This document shows, one piece after another, positions 5,148 to 22,031 of a DNA stretch of 51,357 nucleotides (positions are counted from its first letter, which is position 1; each line of letters begins with the position of its first letter). The notes below the pieces were generated by a model, which was not told the origin of the DNA, did no database searches, and saw only the letters and a list, made by a program, of their open reading frames with translations. Both the position numbers and the translations under genes were made by a program. Source of the stretch: Verrucomicrobiales bacterium (lineage in GTDB: Bacteria > Verrucomicrobiota > Verrucomicrobiia > Verrucomicrobiales > DEV007). The DNA is taken from positions 1-51,357 of the forward strand of contig JARGOP010000028.1 in NCBI GenBank assembly GCA_029233965.1, given 5' to 3'.

Positions 5148-5180
5148 TTTGAAATAGTGTTCACTTAAACACTTTTCAAA
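5148..5180. promoter_or_regulatory. LexA-operator-like palindrome upstream of imuA
   Basis: AGTGTT (5156-5161) and AACACT (5168-5173) form an inverted repeat with a 6-base spacer. It is flanked by TTTGAAA (5148-5154) and TTTCAAA (5174-5180), extending the symmetry to 33 bases. Its centre is about 28 bases upstream of the imuA start. imu cassettes are classically LexA-repressed, so this is the best operator candidate. A related half-site, AAGTGT, lies nearby at 5125-5130. No lexA gene is in the window. Confidence 0.5.
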
Positions 5181-5192
5181 GAGCAGGCATTT

Positions 5193-5894
5193 ATGACAGG
5201 GGAAGAAAAAATCGCTGCCCTGGCGGCGATACGGGATCAGCTGGGCAGTCGCATTCGCACGGGGAGTGATCTGCTCGTGGTACAGGAAACCCGGGAAAGG
5301 AGAGCCGCTACGGGGCTGTCAGGACTGAACGAGCATCTCGGGGGGGGGCTGCCAAAAGGGCACCTCACTGAGATCATCAGCGAGCGCGGGCCCTGTGGCG
5401 GTGGAGGGCTTGTCATGGCGGCGATGCTATCCCGGGTGCGGCAGGAGCAGCAGTATGTGATGCTGTTTGACGTGGGGGGCAGCTTCACCGCCGAGAGTTT
5501 TCCGCCGGAGGATCTGGAAGCACTTTTGTGGGTGGGGTGTGCGTCACCTTTCGAGTCGTTGGAAGCACTCGACATTGCTTCGCGCGATGAGAATTTCAGT
5601 CTTTTTCTGCTCGATTGGCGGAACTGTCTCAGGAGGGACTGGTCCGGCTTGAAGTCGAGTTTGTGGTATCGCATCCTCGGGCAGTTGCGTGAAAGAGAGG
5701 TCGCTGCCGTATTGTTCGCTTCGGAAGCGGTGACTTCGGTGGCGAAGCAGAAGTTGCAGGTGAGGATCCCGGTGACCTGCGGACGGCTCGATGAGGAGCG
5801 TTCCCGGCTGTGGGAGGAGCTGGCGTTTTCGGCGATGCAGATGGAGAACGGGCAAAGGCGGGAAGGACATAAAGAGAGACGGCAGGCGGGGTGA
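5193..5894 (+). CDS. imuA: ImuA, RecA-like accessory protein of the mutagenesis cassette
   Basis: The 233-residue protein keeps the RecA-like layout: RAATGLSGLNEHLGGGLPKG (37-56), which precedes the nucleotide-binding loop in RecA/ImuA proteins, then LTEIISERGPCGGGG and a hydrophobic strand ending in Asp (YVMLFDVGGSF). The loop lacks the Lys-Thr/Ser of a working Walker A motif: GPCGGGG occupies residues 66-72. ImuA joins ImuB and DnaE2 in damage-induced lesion bypass and mutagenesis; context makes the name secure. A palindrome at 5148-5180 probably controls it. Its TGA overlaps the GTG of imuB by four bases, suggesting coupled translation. The last 20 residues are charged and rich in Arg, Lys and Gln. 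Confidence 0.85.
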   Translation: MTGEEKIAALAAIRDQLGSRIRTGSDLLVVQETRERRAATGLSGLNEHLGGGLPKGHLTEIISERGPCGGGGLVMAAMLSRVRQEQQYVMLFDVGGSFTAESFPPEDLEALLWVGCASPFESLEALDIASRDENFSLFLLDWRNCLRRDWSGLKSSLWYRILGQLREREVAAVLFASEAVTSVAKQKLQVRIPVTCGRLDEERSRLWEELAFSAMQMENGQRREGHKERRQAG

Positions 5895-7396
5895 GAATAA
5901 CCAACATCCAACATCCAACATCCAGCTACGCCGTGGTCTCGTGTCCTGATTTCAGACTGCAGGCGGTCGTCCGCCGTGTGCACACGGAATCGCAAGCGGT
6001 GACTCTCGTCGATGATACGCAGCGACAGTCTGTCGTTTTGTCCCGGAACGAAGCGGCCATGCGAATGGGCGTGGAGATCGGGATGAAAACGGTGCAGGCG
6101 CTGGCGCGGTGCCCGGCTCTGCAGATTGAACGTCCCTCTGCCCCCGCCGAGATCGCGGCATCGCGACTCTTGCTGGAAACGTCTCTTTCCTGGGTGCCGG
6201 GGATCGAGGAAACGGAAGCGGGTATGCTCACGCTCGATCTTTCGACGGAGCCGGAGGAGGCACGGGTCGACAGCGCGAAGCGTATCCGGGGGCGGCTCTA
6301 CGATGCCGGGCTCGAGGTCGTGATCGGACTGGGGGAGACACCCTCGCTGGCGCGGATCGCGGCTTCCGCGGCGCGACAAAAAGGAGAGAGTATTTGGCAA
6401 CTGGTTCCGGAGCGACGACTGGATCTCCTCGACGGCTTGACCCTGGAGGTGGCGGAGGTGGGAGCGGAGCTCAAAGAGCGATTGTCCCTCTGGGGCATTC
6501 AGACCCCGGGGGGATTTGCCCGACTCCCGCGTGAAGCAGTGGCCGCCCGGCTTGGGGAGGAAGGTGTCGAACTCTGGCTCAAGTTGACCGGACAAATGCG
6601 GCGCCCTCTGCGTTTTGCGAAGCTGGAGGAGCTCTTCGAGGAGCACGAGGATTTTGATTACGAGGTGTGCGACCGAGAACCGCTCCTCTTTGTCGTGAAC
6701 CGTTTTCTCGATCAGCTCATTGTCAGGGTGGCTCGCACCGGCCGGGCCGCGACGGCAGTGCACGTGCTTCTTACCTTTGCCAATGGCGTTTGTCATGCCC
6801 GTAGGCTCGCCCTGCCCGAGCCGGCCCTCGATCACGAGATTCTCTTTCACCTTGTGAGCGGGCATCTCGATTCTCTCGAATGGAAAGCGCCGGTGGAGTC
6901 CTTGCGATTGCGCTTTGAGCCATCCGACACGGTGGCCTCGCAACGATTGCTTTTCGGGGCCGGACTACGAAACCGGTTTCAGTTTGAAGACACCATGAAA
7001 CGCCTCCGCCGTCTCGTCGGGAGTGAGCGGGTCGGGTCTCCGAGGATGAGGAACACGCATCGACCGGGCGCTTTTGAATTGGTGCCGTTGCCTTCGGAGA
7101 TTGAAACGGCTTCGGAGCGGGGCGGGCCGCCGGTAACCGGATTTACCCTGTGCCGCTGGCAGGGCCGGGTTCGGGCTGAAGTGCGATGGAAAAGCGGTCA
7201 ACCGGAACGGGTCGCGTCACGCCCCGTTTCCGGGATCGTGATCCGGGCTGCAGGACCGTGGCACTGCGGCGGGGACTGGTGGCATGAGGGAAAGCAGTGG
7301 CGACGACGGGAGTGGGATGTCGAACTGTCCGGACAGGGAGTGTTCCGTCTCGTCGAAAGTGAAGCGGAGTGTTTTCTTGAAGGGCGATACGATTGA
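5891..7396 (+). CDS. imuB: ImuB, Y-family polymerase-like scaffold protein
   Basis: The 501-residue protein starts at GTG 5891, inside the stop region of imuA. The Y-family fold begins at about residue 13 (YAVVSCPDFRLQAVVR); residues 4-12 are encoded by a 7-bp tandem repeat. GMLTLDLSTEP (111-121) stands where active Y-family polymerases have their SIDE-type catalytic motif, so polymerase activity is probably lost, as in other ImuB proteins. IGLGETPSLARIAASAARQK matches the palm/helix-hairpin region. QRLLF at 351-355 resembles a beta-clamp-binding pentapeptide, in the expected place after the core. ImuB is known to bridge the clamp, ImuA and DnaE2. dnaE2 starts six bases after its stop. Confidence 0.9.
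   Translation: MRITNIQHPTSSYAVVSCPDFRLQAVVRRVHTESQAVTLVDDTQRQSVVLSRNEAAMRMGVEIGMKTVQALARCPALQIERPSAPAEIAASRLLLETSLSWVPGIEETEAGMLTLDLSTEPEEARVDSAKRIRGRLYDAGLEVVIGLGETPSLARIAASAARQKGESIWQLVPERRLDLLDGLTLEVAEVGAELKERLSLWGIQTPGGFARLPREAVAARLGEEGVELWLKLTGQMRRPLRFAKLEELFEEHEDFDYEVCDREPLLFVVNRFLDQLIVRVARTGRAATAVHVLLTFANGVCHARRLALPEPALDHEILFHLVSGHLDSLEWKAPVESLRLRFEPSDTVASQRLLFGAGLRNRFQFEDTMKRLRRLVGSERVGSPRMRNTHRPGAFELVPLPSEIETASERGGPPVTGFTLCRWQGRVRAEVRWKSGQPERVASRPVSGIVIRAAGPWHCGGDWWHEGKQWRRREWDVELSGQGVFRLVESEAECFLEGRYD
5901..5923 (+). repeat. 7-bp tandem repeat (CCAACAT)x3 at the imuA/imuB junction
   Basis: CCAACAT occurs three times in a row (5901-5921) followed by CC, starting ten bases after the GTG of imuB. 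The unit length is not a multiple of three, so gain or loss of one copy would shift the reading frame between this start and the ImuB body. It encodes residues 4-11 of ImuB as read here. Confidence 0.85.
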
Positions 7397-7402
7397 GAAG
7401 TC

Positions 7403-10400
7403 ATGGCTGAATATCACGAACTTCACACCCGCAGTGCCTTCAGCTTTTTGCGGGGAGCTTCCGCGCCGGAATCACTCGCGGATCGGGTCGGGCAGCTCGA
7501 CCTTCCCGGGGTTGCCTTGCAGGATCGGGATGGATTTTATGGCTCGGTCAGGTTTCATCAGCGGGCGCGGGAAAACGGGTTTCGTGCCTTGGTCGGAACG
7601 GAACTGACCCTGGAGGACGAGACTGTTTTGCCAATCTTGATTCAAACCCGGGAAGCTTACCGGCAGGTTTCCCGGTTGCTGACGCGGGCTCAATTACGTG
7701 CGGCAAAGGGGAATTGCCGGATCCAATGGTCAGAGTTGGAGGAGATCAACGAAGGTATCGCCGTTCTCACCGGTGACGTGGAGGGCCCTCTTGAGGTTGC
7801 ATGGCGGCGGGACGGTCATCGGGGCATGGAGACCGCGATGGAGCAGATGAAGCGCCATCTCCCGGCGCAGAGTCTGTGGATGGAGGTGCAGCGTCATGCG
7901 GTCCGGGGAGAGGAATCGCTTGTTCGGGCGAAGCGCGATCTTGCGGCTGCGAAAGGCCTCCCACTCCTCGCGACGAACGGGGTGTCCTACGCGCGATCGC
8001 AGAACCGTCAGGTCCAGGACGTCTTCACCTGCCTCCGACTTCACACCACGCTTGATGCCGCAGGTCGTGAACTCGCGGTCAACGGGCAGAGTTACCTCAA
8101 GTCGGGAGCAGAGATGCGGGCACTGTTCGCCGACCTGCCGGAGGCGATTGAAAACACGGCACGCCTCGCGGAAACCCTGGAGTTTTCACTCGAAAATCTC
8201 GGCTATGAGTTTCCGAAGCTCCCTGTGCCGGAAGGACACACGATGGATACCTACCTCGCGAACCGGACCTGGCACGGGGCGAGAAAGCGATACGGCAAAC
8301 TTTCCCGGGCGGTGAAAGCCCAGCTTCAGCACGAACTCGATCTCATCACCCGACTGGGATTCAGCGGATATTTTCTGATTGTCTGGAGCCTCGTGAATTA
8401 CTGCCGCGAAAACGACATCATGGTTCAGGGGCGGGGAAGTGCCGCGAACAGTGCGGTGTGTTATTCGCTCGGGATCACGCCGGTCGATCCGGTGGGGAGT
8501 AAGCTGCTCTTCGAGCGTTTTCTCAGCGAAGGGCGGAAGTCGTGGCCCGACATTGACCTGGATCTTCCGAGTGGAGATCAGCGCGAGCAGGTGATTCAGG
8601 AAGTCTATCGGCGCTACGGTCGCCACGGCGCGGCAATGACGGCGAATGTCATCACCTATCGCGGACGGAGTGCGGTTCGTGAGATCGGGAAGGTCCTCGA
8701 ATTTCCCGAAGAAATGCTGAGCCGGTTTTCGGATCTCTACGCGAGCGGAGACTATAAACACACGATCACTTTTGAAGAGCAGGTCGCTAAATCGGGGATC
8801 ACGGCGGAGCATCCCCGGGCGGCGGCTCTCGCGACTTTGTATGAGCAGATTTACGGACTGCCGCGTCATCTCGGTCAGCACTCGGGTGGGATGATTATTT
8901 GTCAGGGCGAGCTCGATGCGGTGATGCCTCTGGAGAATGCGAGCATGCCGGGGCGGACCGTCGCGCAGTGGGATAAGAATGATTGCGGGGAAATGGGGAT
9001 CATCAAAGTGGACTTGCTAGGGTTGGGAATGATGGCGGTCTTGCAGGAAACGCTGCAGCTTTCCGGGAAACGGGGACGTCCTGTCGATCTCGCGCAGATT
9101 CCGAAAGATGATGAGGCGACTTATGACTTGATGTGTTCAGCCGACACGATCGGCGTCTTCCAAATCGAAAGCCGCGCCCAGATGAACACGCTACGCCGCA
9201 TGCAGCCCCGGTGTTTCTATGATGTCGTCGTCGAAGTCGCGATCGTGCGCCCCGGTCCCATCGTCGGCGGGCTCGCGCATCCCTACCTGAATCGCCGCGA
9301 TGGAAAAGAGCCGGTCGATTACATTGATGAGAAGCTCCAGCCGACCCTGGAGCGGACCCTCGGGGTTCCCATGTTTCAGGAGCAGGTCTTGAAAATGGCC
9401 ATGGTCATGGCCGACTTTACCGGGAGCGAGGCCGAGGAGCTCCGCAAGGCGCTGAGTTTTCACCGGTCTCACGAAAAGATGCAGCGGGTCGAGATGAAGC
9501 TGCGCCGTGCCCTTGAGGAGCGGGGTGTCGAGGAGGACAAGATCGAGCAGATCGTGAAGGTGATCGGCTCCTTTGCACTCTATGGATTCCCCGAGTCCCA
9601 TGCGATCAGCTTCGGGATTCTTGCCTACGCGAGCAGCTATCTCAAAGTGCATCGCGCCGCCGAGTTCTACACCGGGCTCCTCAACAATCAGCCGATGGGG
9701 TTCTATTCCCCGGCCACCTTGATTCAGGAGGCAAAGCGTCGCGGGCTGAAGTTTCGAGCACCCAGTGTCGTCACGTCAGGGTGGCGGTGTGAAGTGCTCG
9801 ATGATGCAACGATCCAGCTCGGACTACTCACGGTGAAGGGGGTGAATGAGGCCGGGGTTCAGCACATGATCGCAGAACGGGGGCGCGAACCCTTTCATTC
9901 ACTGGAGGATTTCCGGCAGCGGACAGAGTTTGATCGTCGCCAGATGCGACAGCTCGCTTCGGTCGGGGCTCTCAATGATTATGCCCTGACAAGGCGACAT
10001 TCGATCTGGGAAGTGGAGGCGGAGGAGTTGGAGCAGGGCGATCTTTTTGCGGGTCGGGCATCCGGCCCGTCCGTCGTGAAAGAGTGTCCTCTGCCGGAGA
10101 TGTCGTATCCCGAGCGGATTCAGGCCGATTTTGCGGGGCTTGGGATGACGGCTGGAAAGCATCCCATGGCGCTGGTGCGACCGCAGTTGCCGGAGTCGGT
10201 TTTGACCGCGATACAGCTCAGAGATCTCCCTCAGGGCGCGGCCGCTTCGACGGCCGGTGCCGTGATTTGCCGTCAACGGCCCGGCACCGCAAAGGGGGTG
10301 GTTTTTATCACTCTGGAAGATGAGACCGGTCTTTCTAACAGTATCGTCTATGCCGATCGGTTTGAAGACTATCGTCTCACGATCACGACGGAGCCGTTTT

Positions 10401-10519
10401 TGCTCATTACCGGAAAAGTCCAGCAGGCCGCGGGGACGACGCACCTCATGGCGGAGCGAATCGAGCCGCTGCGGACTCCGGCGGAGCTACCGTCTGCGGC
10501 ATCGCATGATTTTCACTGA
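7403..10519 (+). CDS. dnaE2: DnaE2, error-prone DNA polymerase III alpha-like (ImuC)
   Basis: The 1038-residue length fits DnaE2, shorter than replicative DnaE. The N-terminal PHP domain opens with EYHELHTRSAFSFLRGAS (3-20); LHTRSAFSFL is the DnaE2-type wording. Polymerase motifs follow: GRGSAANS near 343, WPDIDLDLPSGD near 383 with two catalytic Asp, and GIIKVDLLGLG near 536 with the third. EQGDLF at 877-882 contains QGDLF, close to the clamp-binding QADMF of E. coli alpha. The C-terminus is an OB-fold (GVVFITLEDETGLSNSIVY). It performs the actual lesion-bypass synthesis. It is the last gene of the imu operon and is followed by a weak hairpin at 10534-10551. Confidence 0.93.
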   Translation: MAEYHELHTRSAFSFLRGASAPESLADRVGQLDLPGVALQDRDGFYGSVRFHQRARENGFRALVGTELTLEDETVLPILIQTREAYRQVSRLLTRAQLRAAKGNCRIQWSELEEINEGIAVLTGDVEGPLEVAWRRDGHRGMETAMEQMKRHLPAQSLWMEVQRHAVRGEESLVRAKRDLAAAKGLPLLATNGVSYARSQNRQVQDVFTCLRLHTTLDAAGRELAVNGQSYLKSGAEMRALFADLPEAIENTARLAETLEFSLENLGYEFPKLPVPEGHTMDTYLANRTWHGARKRYGKLSRAVKAQLQHELDLITRLGFSGYFLIVWSLVNYCRENDIMVQGRGSAANSAVCYSLGITPVDPVGSKLLFERFLSEGRKSWPDIDLDLPSGDQREQVIQEVYRRYGRHGAAMTANVITYRGRSAVREIGKVLEFPEEMLSRFSDLYASGDYKHTITFEEQVAKSGITAEHPRAAALATLYEQIYGLPRHLGQHSGGMIICQGELDAVMPLENASMPGRTVAQWDKNDCGEMGIIKVDLLGLGMMAVLQETLQLSGKRGRPVDLAQIPKDDEATYDLMCSADTIGVFQIESRAQMNTLRRMQPRCFYDVVVEVAIVRPGPIVGGLAHPYLNRRDGKEPVDYIDEKLQPTLERTLGVPMFQEQVLKMAMVMADFTGSEAEELRKALSFHRSHEKMQRVEMKLRRALEERGVEEDKIEQIVKVIGSFALYGFPESHAISFGILAYASSYLKVHRAAEFYTGLLNNQPMGFYSPATLIQEAKRRGLKFRAPSVVTSGWRCEVLDDATIQLGLLTVKGVNEAGVQHMIAERGREPFHSLEDFRQRTEFDRRQMRQLASVGALNDYALTRRHSIWEVEAEELEQGDLFAGRASGPSVVKECPLPEMSYPERIQADFAGLGMTAGKHPMALVRPQLPESVLTAIQLRDLPQGAAASTAGAVICRQRPGTAKGVVFITLEDETGLSNSIVYADRFEDYRLTITTEPFLLITGKVQQAAGTTHLMAERIEPLRTPAELPSAASHDFH

Positions 10520-20183: not shown

Positions 20184-22031
20184 GTGAGTTCCAACTACCA
20201 GGTCTTTGCCCGAAAATATCGTCCCCGCACCTTTGAAGATGTGCTGGGGCAGGATCACGTGGTGCAGACGCTTCGCAACGCGATCGAAAAAGAGCGGCTC
20301 GCGCACGCCTATCTTTTCGTCGGTCCGCGGGGGACGGGAAAGACTTCAACGGCCCGGATTCTCGCCAAGGCGCTGAACTGCCCGAACGGCCCCAGTGCTA
20401 CTTTTGATCCAGATGATCCGATCTGCGTGGAAATCGGGGAAGGGAACAGCCTCGATGTCCTCGAGATTGATGGAGCCTCGAACAACGGCGTCGATGAGGT
20501 CCGCGGGCTGCGCGAAACCGTGAAGTTCGCGCCCAGCTCGGGTCAGTACAAGATTTACTACATCGACGAGGTTCACATGCTTACGACGCAGGCGTTCAAC
20601 GCGCTGCTCAAGACCCTGGAAGAACCTCCCCCTCACGTGAAGTTTATCTTTGCGACGACTGAGCCGCAGAAAATTCTGCCGACGATCATCAGTCGTTGTC
20701 AGCGCTTCGATCTGCGCCGCATCCCCACGGATATCATTGCGAAGCACTTGCAGTTCATCGCCGGGGAAGAGGGGATCTCGATGAACGAAGCGGCTGCCTT
20801 CGCGATCGCAAAAGGGGCCGAGGGCGGGATGCGCGATGCTCAGTCGATGCTGGACCAGCTCGTGGCTTTCTGCGGCAACACAATCGACGAATCCAATGTC
20901 CTCGATATTTTCGGGTTCAACTCAGCGGAGTCGATTTCTGATCTCGCGGGCCAGATTTTGCGCCGCGACAACTCCGCTGCTCTGGAGTCGATCCATGTTC
21001 ACAGTGATGCGGGAAAGGATCTTTCAAAGCTGCTTTCAGACCTCATCAGTCATTACCGCAACGTCCTCCTTCTCAAGGTCGATCCCGGAGCGAACACCGG
21101 GGAGATGCCGGGTGATTTGCTCACCGTTATTCAGGAGCAGGCGGGCATTGTCGACACGCAGAGACTTCTCAAGCTGATTGATCTTTTCGCAGAAACCGAT
21201 TCACGCATGAAGTGGGCTCCGAACAAAAAGCTTCACTTCGAGATCGGAATCATCAAAGCGATTCAGACTCTCGGCGAAGCGTCCATCGACGATGTCATCG
21301 CGATGATTTCCACTGCGGCGAGTGCTTCAAGCCAGCTCCCGGCGGTATCGGTATCGGACGCATCGCAAGCGGAGCCGGTTGCCACGATGCCGGATTCCTC
21401 CGCGAAGGCCCTGGCGGCGGCTGAGTCTGTCGCTCCGCGAGGGGAAGTGATTCCTGAATCACCTCCGGTCGTCGTTCCTCAGCCTGTGGAGGCACTCGTG
21501 CCCCCGGAAACTGATCCTGATCCCGCGCCGGTGGCAACATCTGGGCCGACATTGGCTGCGCCGGTTCCTGCGGCGCCACTTTCCGGCCCGGCGCTCTGGA
21601 CTGCCGCTCAGAAGACCTTAATCGAAGAGCGGCCTCTATTTGAAACCTGGCTCGTCGCAGCTCAGTTTATCAGCCACGAGGGGAACCAGTTCACGATCGG
21701 ATTTTCAACGGAGCAGCGTTTTTTCCGCGAATCTCTTTCCCGCTACGAAAAGGAGATGGCGGAAACGATTGGATCGCTCGCGGGGGCACCGGTGGAGTTG
21801 GCGGTCGAAGTTCGCGATGATCTTGCCCCGGCGGAAATGCCGATCGAGGCGGATGAGCCTCCCGAAGAAGGCCCCGCTCCCGCAGAGCCCGAACCCTCGC
21901 CCGCCGCCACGCAGCCGGAGCCGACCCCGGAGCCGACCCCGGAGCCGAAAGGCAGCGAAGAAGACCTTAAGAAAGACCCTTTGATCTCAGAGGCGCTGGA
22001 CGTTTTCCAGGCTCGAGTCATTAAATCCTAA
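20184..22031 (+). CDS. dnaX: DNA polymerase III gamma/tau subunit
   Basis: Residues 1-365 are a typical DnaX clamp-loader ATPase: YQVFARKYRPRTFEDVLGQD (5-24), Walker A GPRGTGKT (47-54), DEVH (128-131), LLKTLEEPPPHVKFIFATTE and the SRC motif with arginine finger (170-172). The zinc module normally present between Walker A and B keeps only Cys66 and Cys81 of its four cysteines and probably binds no zinc. Residues about 375-475 are a low-complexity Ala/Pro/Val/Glu linker. A conserved-looking helical domain follows (about 475-545), then an acidic Pro tail coded in part by 12-bp repeats (21917-21948). GTG 20184 follows a GGAGG at very short spacing. ybaB is 22 bases downstream, as in many genomes. 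Confidence 0.93.
   Translation: MSSNYQVFARKYRPRTFEDVLGQDHVVQTLRNAIEKERLAHAYLFVGPRGTGKTSTARILAKALNCPNGPSATFDPDDPICVEIGEGNSLDVLEIDGASNNGVDEVRGLRETVKFAPSSGQYKIYYIDEVHMLTTQAFNALLKTLEEPPPHVKFIFATTEPQKILPTIISRCQRFDLRRIPTDIIAKHLQFIAGEEGISMNEAAAFAIAKGAEGGMRDAQSMLDQLVAFCGNTIDESNVLDIFGFNSAESISDLAGQILRRDNSAALESIHVHSDAGKDLSKLLSDLISHYRNVLLLKVDPGANTGEMPGDLLTVIQEQAGIVDTQRLLKLIDLFAETDSRMKWAPNKKLHFEIGIIKAIQTLGEASIDDVIAMISTAASASSQLPAVSVSDASQAEPVATMPDSSAKALAAAESVAPRGEVIPESPPVVVPQPVEALVPPETDPDPAPVATSGPTLAAPVPAAPLSGPALWTAAQKTLIEERPLFETWLVAAQFISHEGNQFTIGFSTEQRFFRESLSRYEKEMAETIGSLAGAPVELAVEVRDDLAPAEMPIEADEPPEEGPAPAEPEPSPAATQPEPTPEPTPEPKGSEEDLKKDPLISEALDVFQARVIKS

Follow-up and report, generated by a model that had tools for sequence, protein, structure and literature searches.

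A heptanucleotide repeat, probably incidental and absorbed as a variable N-terminal tail of ImuB in a Verrucomicrobiales bacterium

In contingency loci such as neuO of E. coli K1, a coding heptamer tract of many copies lies near the 5' end of the gene, and its variation is documented. Heptamers have also been described as dispersed arrays. The units GGGAATC or (GGGANTN)n of Xanthomonas and GGGGA(C/T)T of Nostoc form 183-186 arrays per genome, which were studied as G-quadruplexes; 89-93% of the Xanthomonas arrays are intergenic, and long ones lie at different genes in two species (PMC4692102). Direct repeats of TAACTGA occur in Beggiatoaceae, Cyanobacteria and Bacteroidetes, in sets of 2-6 copies in the main genome, and those inside coding sequence lie mainly at protein ends (PMC4679880). 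For a mutability gene, a study of mutL gives interconversion of alleles with three and with two copies of a 6-bp unit, seen in mutator cultures of Salmonella LT7 (PMC2955026).

Here we analysed a window of 51,357 nt, by which we mean the whole stretch of DNA under study (contig JARGOP010000028.1 of assembly GCA_029233965.1, Verrucomicrobiales bacterium, forward strand), in which a CCAACAT array lies at the start of imuB. As in the contingency loci, its unit is not a multiple of three and lies in the 5' coding region, but the array has 3.4 copies in one assembly. Like the Xanthomonas and Nostoc repeats (PMC4692102), the arrays found here have period 7 and a fixed core with variable positions, are dispersed on both strands, lie mostly at or between gene edges, and occupy sites that are not common to related species. 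Unlike those G-rich units, however, the core here is CCAA, the imuB array is read as coding sequence, and CCAANAT arrays were found in far smaller numbers per genome (PMC4692102). Since neither CCAACAT nor its complement ATGTTGG contains more than two consecutive G or C, neither strand has a run of three G, and the array falls outside the G-quadruplex subfamily. With TAACTGA, the array shares the heptamer unit, the low copy number, the location at gene edges and the placement of coding copies at the protein periphery; TAACTGA is one unit with stops in all forward frames, whereas the units here are many, differ between species and are mostly stop-free in six frames (PMC4679880). The mutL gene of Salmonella and E. 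coli has a comparable arrangement of three short tandem copies in a mutability gene, in which slippage would change function, but the mutL unit is 6 bp long, keeps the frame and encodes two residues in a structured lid, whereas the 7-bp unit here is frame-shifting and located outside the fold; mutL was seen to switch, whereas the imuB array is known from one assembly (PMC2955026). The imuB array is a further member of the dispersed heptanucleotide kind of repeat, in that it is a tandem 7-bp array of a sort found at several unlinked places, mainly outside conserved coding sequence, at sites that are not kept. A literature search for verrucomicrobial heptamers returned none by title or opening of the abstract among the matches listed, which does not prove their absence.

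The genes around the array are adjacent, lie on one strand and have the layout of an imuA-imuB-dnaE2 mutasome cassette, the imuA match being weak (Table 1). By Pfam and NCBIfam, ImuB is an IMS-domain protein with no name finer than Y family (domain at residues 38-158), and a search of solved structures with ImuB confirmed the Y-family relation and no more. The closest named records with ImuB relatives were metagenome-assembled Verrucomicrobiales and Akkermansiaceae, which makes the host an uncultured member of the Verrucomicrobiota. Ahead of imuA, the site at 5158 reads TGTTC-N4-AAACA, and sites with at most one mismatch to TGTTC-N4-GAACA, a palindrome that we take to be the verrucomicrobial LexA box, were found upstream of imuB at 20 of 24 loci in the genus. 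This candidate SOS box suggests ordinary damage-controlled expression of the cassette. A scan for promoters and terminators gave nothing usable. In one relative (L044, G007:C68), an octamer array, GTGAGAAG, of 55 bp lies at the imuB-dnaE2 junction, about 16 bases past the end of the imuB match, and the contig ends there.

Table 1. Features of the imuA-imuB-dnaE2 region (window coordinates) and sites of CCAANAT arrays in the genome
Feature	Position	Strand	Basis
Candidate LexA/SOS box TGTTCACTTAAACA, upstream of imuA	5158..5171	+	One mismatch from palindrome TGTTC-N4-GAACA
imuA-like gene, 233 aa	5193..5894	+	NF033429, E 2.7e-7 (under curated cut-off); position in cassette
imuB, 501 aa, GTG start overlapping imuA stop (GTGA)	5891..7396	+	PF00817, E 1.2e-13; orthologues
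Codons 1-12 of imuB, variable N-terminal tail, mostly array-encoded	5891..5926	+	Junction reading, alignment
Perfect CCAACAT tandem array, 3.4 copies	5901..5924	+	TRF, sequence
In-frame GTG (Val15) behind array, candidate alternative or reinitiation start	5933..5935	+	Sequence, translation
dnaE2, error-prone DNA polymerase	7403..10519	+	NF004225, 1169 bits against cut-off 939
CCAANAT sites: pheT leader; imuB; ahead of DUF1501 gene; ahead of FAA-hydrolase-type gene; between two convergent gene pairs

The first-pass annotation had reported three copies of CCAACAT at the imuB start, and TRF confirmed this as an array of period 7 and 24 bp with 100% matches; the span given there, 5891-5923, covers the imuB start and the array minus its last base. 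From position 5891 the bases read GTG AGA ATA ACC AAC ATC CAA CAT CCA ACA TCC AGC TAC, so that the array starts ten bases past the first base of the GTG. The array is short, and exact CCAACATx2 occurs at this single place in the whole 4.83-Mb genome, which would fit a chance product of a low-complexity stretch. Perfect runs of such quality, however, are expected by chance at about 1.4e-4 per 51 kb for periods 1-30 together, none appeared in five third-order Markov resamplings of the window, and similar arrays occur at other sites in the genome. The expectation and the resamplings rule out chance as the origin, and we give that reading practically no weight. The window itself holds two perfect arrays of this quality, the CCAACAT array and an in-frame 12-mer in a DnaX-type gene.

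That a change in copy number would break the imuB frame, as the first-pass annotation had argued from a unit that is not a multiple of three, proved right. By arithmetic, the frame from GTG 5891 is open through imuB at 0, 3, 6 and 9 units and broken (OFF) at 1, 2, 4, 5, 7 and 8 units. The peptide made before a stop would have 14, 34, 21, 41, 28 and 48 residues at 1, 2, 4, 5, 7 and 8 units, respectively, such that loss or gain of one unit from the present three leaves a 34- or 21-residue peptide.

We next consider what the array encodes. Invariant columns in an alignment of five ImuB proteins begin at Tyr13, and an AF2 model of low confidence (mean pLDDT 41.7), to which we attach little weight, has its first strand at residues 13-17. 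Both agree with the earlier placement of the start of the fold near residue 13. Among the 33 genomes of the genus, taken as one genome per species, a protein search detected imuB in 28, and the imuA-imuB junction was readable in 24 of these 28, the genome under study included. The four others were set aside because the match begins at residue 66 and is cut by a contig end (G002), because only a C-terminal fragment is present (G027), or because the matches are fragments of 32-35% identity (G005) or have 26% identity (G009); a second fragment in G019 and weak Y-family matches were also excluded. No array was found at the junction in the 23 other readable loci, which leaves 1 of 24 with our own; a search for conservation of the array at imuB was thus negative among these loci.

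The tails at these junctions vary. Here the tail is MRITNIQHPTSS, with a GTG start and 12 codons, while the two closest orthologues (83% and 80% identity) have predicted ATG starts and 11 codons before the conserved Tyr, with the tails MGFTNQTQPTG and MGFTCQTHSSG. With starts read from open frames, the predicted tails at the other loci range from about 9 to 19 codons and share little sequence, except at the two most divergent loci (31% identity), where the predicted start is directly at the fold. Judged by this comparison, the array appears to be the present form of a variable, tolerant ImuB tail. It may have been inserted whole or may have grown in place from a tail like ACCAACCAAACTCAACCC, the alignment of the tails being ambiguous.

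The array has relatives elsewhere in the genome. One-position variants form (CCAAGAT)n and (CCAAAAT)n arrays, and CCAANAT sites, imuB included, number six and are unlinked (Table 1). One of the six is split between the end of C78 and the beginning of C127; we counted it once, since the two contig ends jointly match one place in G025. The CCAACAT array is linked to the CCAAGAT and CCAAAAT arrays by likeness of sequence, the exact unit being arrayed only here in the genome. In the genus, 19 of 33 genomes have arrays of CCAANNN x3.4; in the phylum, 18 of 288 genomes have CCAANAT x3.4. Among the matches listed, the units differ between species (CCAAGAA, CCAAGGA, CCAACCG, CCAAGCA, CCAACAA and others). 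With an equal number of fixed bases, period 7 gave 350 matches in 19 genomes, period 8 gave 29 in 7 and period 6 gave 42 in 11, counts that are not independent, as matches overlap within long arrays. Control patterns read backward also matched (168, 57 and 8 matches for periods 7, 8 and 6), so that arrays are limited neither to the CCAA core nor to period 7, and heptamer arrays with other cores are common too. In a census of perfect arrays in 200 kb each of our genome and G007, chosen as random-like samples, there were few arrays and no heptamers, which indicates that the class is sparse. Of the 64 possible CCAANNN units, 58 give no stop codon in any of the six frames, and arrays of such units can therefore run into a gene without stopping its reading.

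Within this class, a given heptamer was seen to recur at several unlinked places in one genome (for example, CCAACCG and likewise CCAAGCA in G015), with other units in other species. At two loci (L095 and L100), different heptamer arrays stand head to tail and in register, CCAACAT by CCACCAT and CCAAGAT by CCAACGC, as if the unit had drifted along the array.

To place the arrays relative to genes, we took 23 other CCAANAT arrays with at least three copies, drawn from six genomes, with every stop-to-stop frame of at least 100 codons that spans an array, which gave 47 frame-array pairs and 42 distinct frames; three of the 23 arrays have no such frame. A Pfam domain was present in 10 of the 42 frames, each time with the first domain downstream of the array. 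Nine arrays account for these ten frames, so that an array at the front edge of a gene is not peculiar to imuB, although this upstream bias is partly built in because arrays behind a gene fall past its stop. None of the 23 arrays overlaps a Pfam domain in the 42 frames, with Pfam covering only part of the proteins. The CCAANAT arrays lie at gene edges irrespective of gene function. In the pheT leader, an array is present in 3 of 29 readable genomes, which indicates that sites come and go and are not kept. A conserved function of the array at pheT was considered on account of the three species that have one, and was dropped since 26 of the 29 genomes are without an array of three or more copies. 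The pheT-leader arrays of these three species are (CCAAGAT)n, and in two of the species they lie at contig ends (C78 end/C127 start, L088, L090; L101; L106). Such arrays break assemblies, and an assembled length need not be the true length.

Taken together, these results point to the array as an incidental microsatellite of heptamer units at the start of a gene, one that is potentially mutable and belongs to a dispersed class, and that has probably been absorbed as the ImuB tail. Heptamer microsatellites (CCAANNN and neighbouring units) would arise and turn over at gene edges in the genus, and in this species one such array lies at the imuA-imuB junction. As this junction has no spare spacer, the array is read as codons 4-12 of imuB, and as the stretch is a variable tail before the Y-family fold, its sequence and length would be tolerated while the frame is kept, as it is with three units (21 nt). 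A neutral origin of the array and its tolerance in the tail are what we infer from these comparisons, and occasional slippage would then give mostly null imuB alleles and not a regulated switch. Between the two suggestions of the first-pass annotation, a phase switch and a spacer whose position outside the fold made it tolerable, the latter is the better supported.

Slipped-strand mispairing could instead change the number of units and toggle ImuB and DnaE2-dependent mutagenic bypass in subpopulations. The position near the start codon and the frame arithmetic, with three units in frame and two and four out, would suit such a switch, and mutL supplies a precedent. We nevertheless consider it unlikely. 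The array has 3.4 copies (24 bp) and is absent from all 23 other readable junctions; it is one of many heptamer arrays in the genus that lie at gene edges whatever the gene does; reinitiation at the in-frame GTG 5933 could blur the OFF state; and the candidate SOS box suggests damage-controlled expression of the ordinary kind. The precedent itself, in the mutL study, comes without detected conversion in non-mutator strains (PMC2955026). The fuller proposal, that the ImuB mutasome is phase-variable by slippage, and that a small subpopulation lacks or regains mutagenic translesion synthesis, with the mutation rate of the species tuned by a stop-free microsatellite, seems to us improbable; in a weaker form, the whole genus may draw such switches from a pool of heptamer arrays that are renewed rapidly where genes start. 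If true, this would be heritable and reversible control of damage-induced mutagenesis by a repeat inside the mutasome, a notable parallel to the mutL repeat. A literature search for imuB with a tandem repeat or phase variation had no imuB among its best matches, which does not prove that there is none.

It is also conceivable that the array is non-coding and that imuB truly starts at GTG 5933, the one further common start codon in the vicinity of the fold, with the array as a leader or spacer as at other genes. Nine other loci have an array ahead of a domain-bearing gene within an open frame, where a mechanical start call would also take the array in, and pheT is a clear example with its ATG behind the array. 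We judge this doubtful, however, because a start at 5933 would remove Tyr13 and Ala14, both invariant in the five aligned ImuB proteins, and half of the first strand in the low-confidence model, whereas GTG 5891 overlaps the imuA stop, as is usual for coupled genes, and the 12-codon tail that results is close to the 11 codons of the two nearest orthologues. A start downstream of the repeat, which the first-pass annotation had named as an argument against its switch, was accordingly not shown. Several arrays lie close ahead of genes, and the Beggiatoaceae study proposes a similar role for TAACTGA repeats upstream of starts (PMC4679880), so that the array might be a recognised signal at gene starts, to which a translational or DNA-binding regulator binds. 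This we regard as very unlikely: two of the six sites in the genome lie between convergent genes, 3 of 29 genomes carry an array in the pheT leader, units vary from species to species among the matches listed, and the predicted folding round the imuB start is not unusual compared with seven orthologues. Regulation by RNA folding at the start was rejected on this comparison of eight loci, which showed nothing special and in which the starts of G011 and G021 were taken nearer the fold than the preferred ones.

The array at imuB thus looks fairly ordinary. It shows a class of CCAANNN heptamers that varies between species in a verrucomicrobial genus, and it shows how genes can take up such arrays as N-terminal tails, since stop codons are nearly always absent from the units. 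Mechanical gene starts beside such arrays are unreliable.

Two further arrays were noted. An octamer array, TACTTTCC, of 5.5 copies and 44 bp lies near a contig end elsewhere in the genome (G000:C27:29-72, L108). In the window, the perfect 12-mer CCGGAGCCGACC at 21915-21948 has 2.8 copies and codes for the PEPTPEPTP tail of the DnaX-type gene; it is in frame, so that a change in copy number would alter length only.
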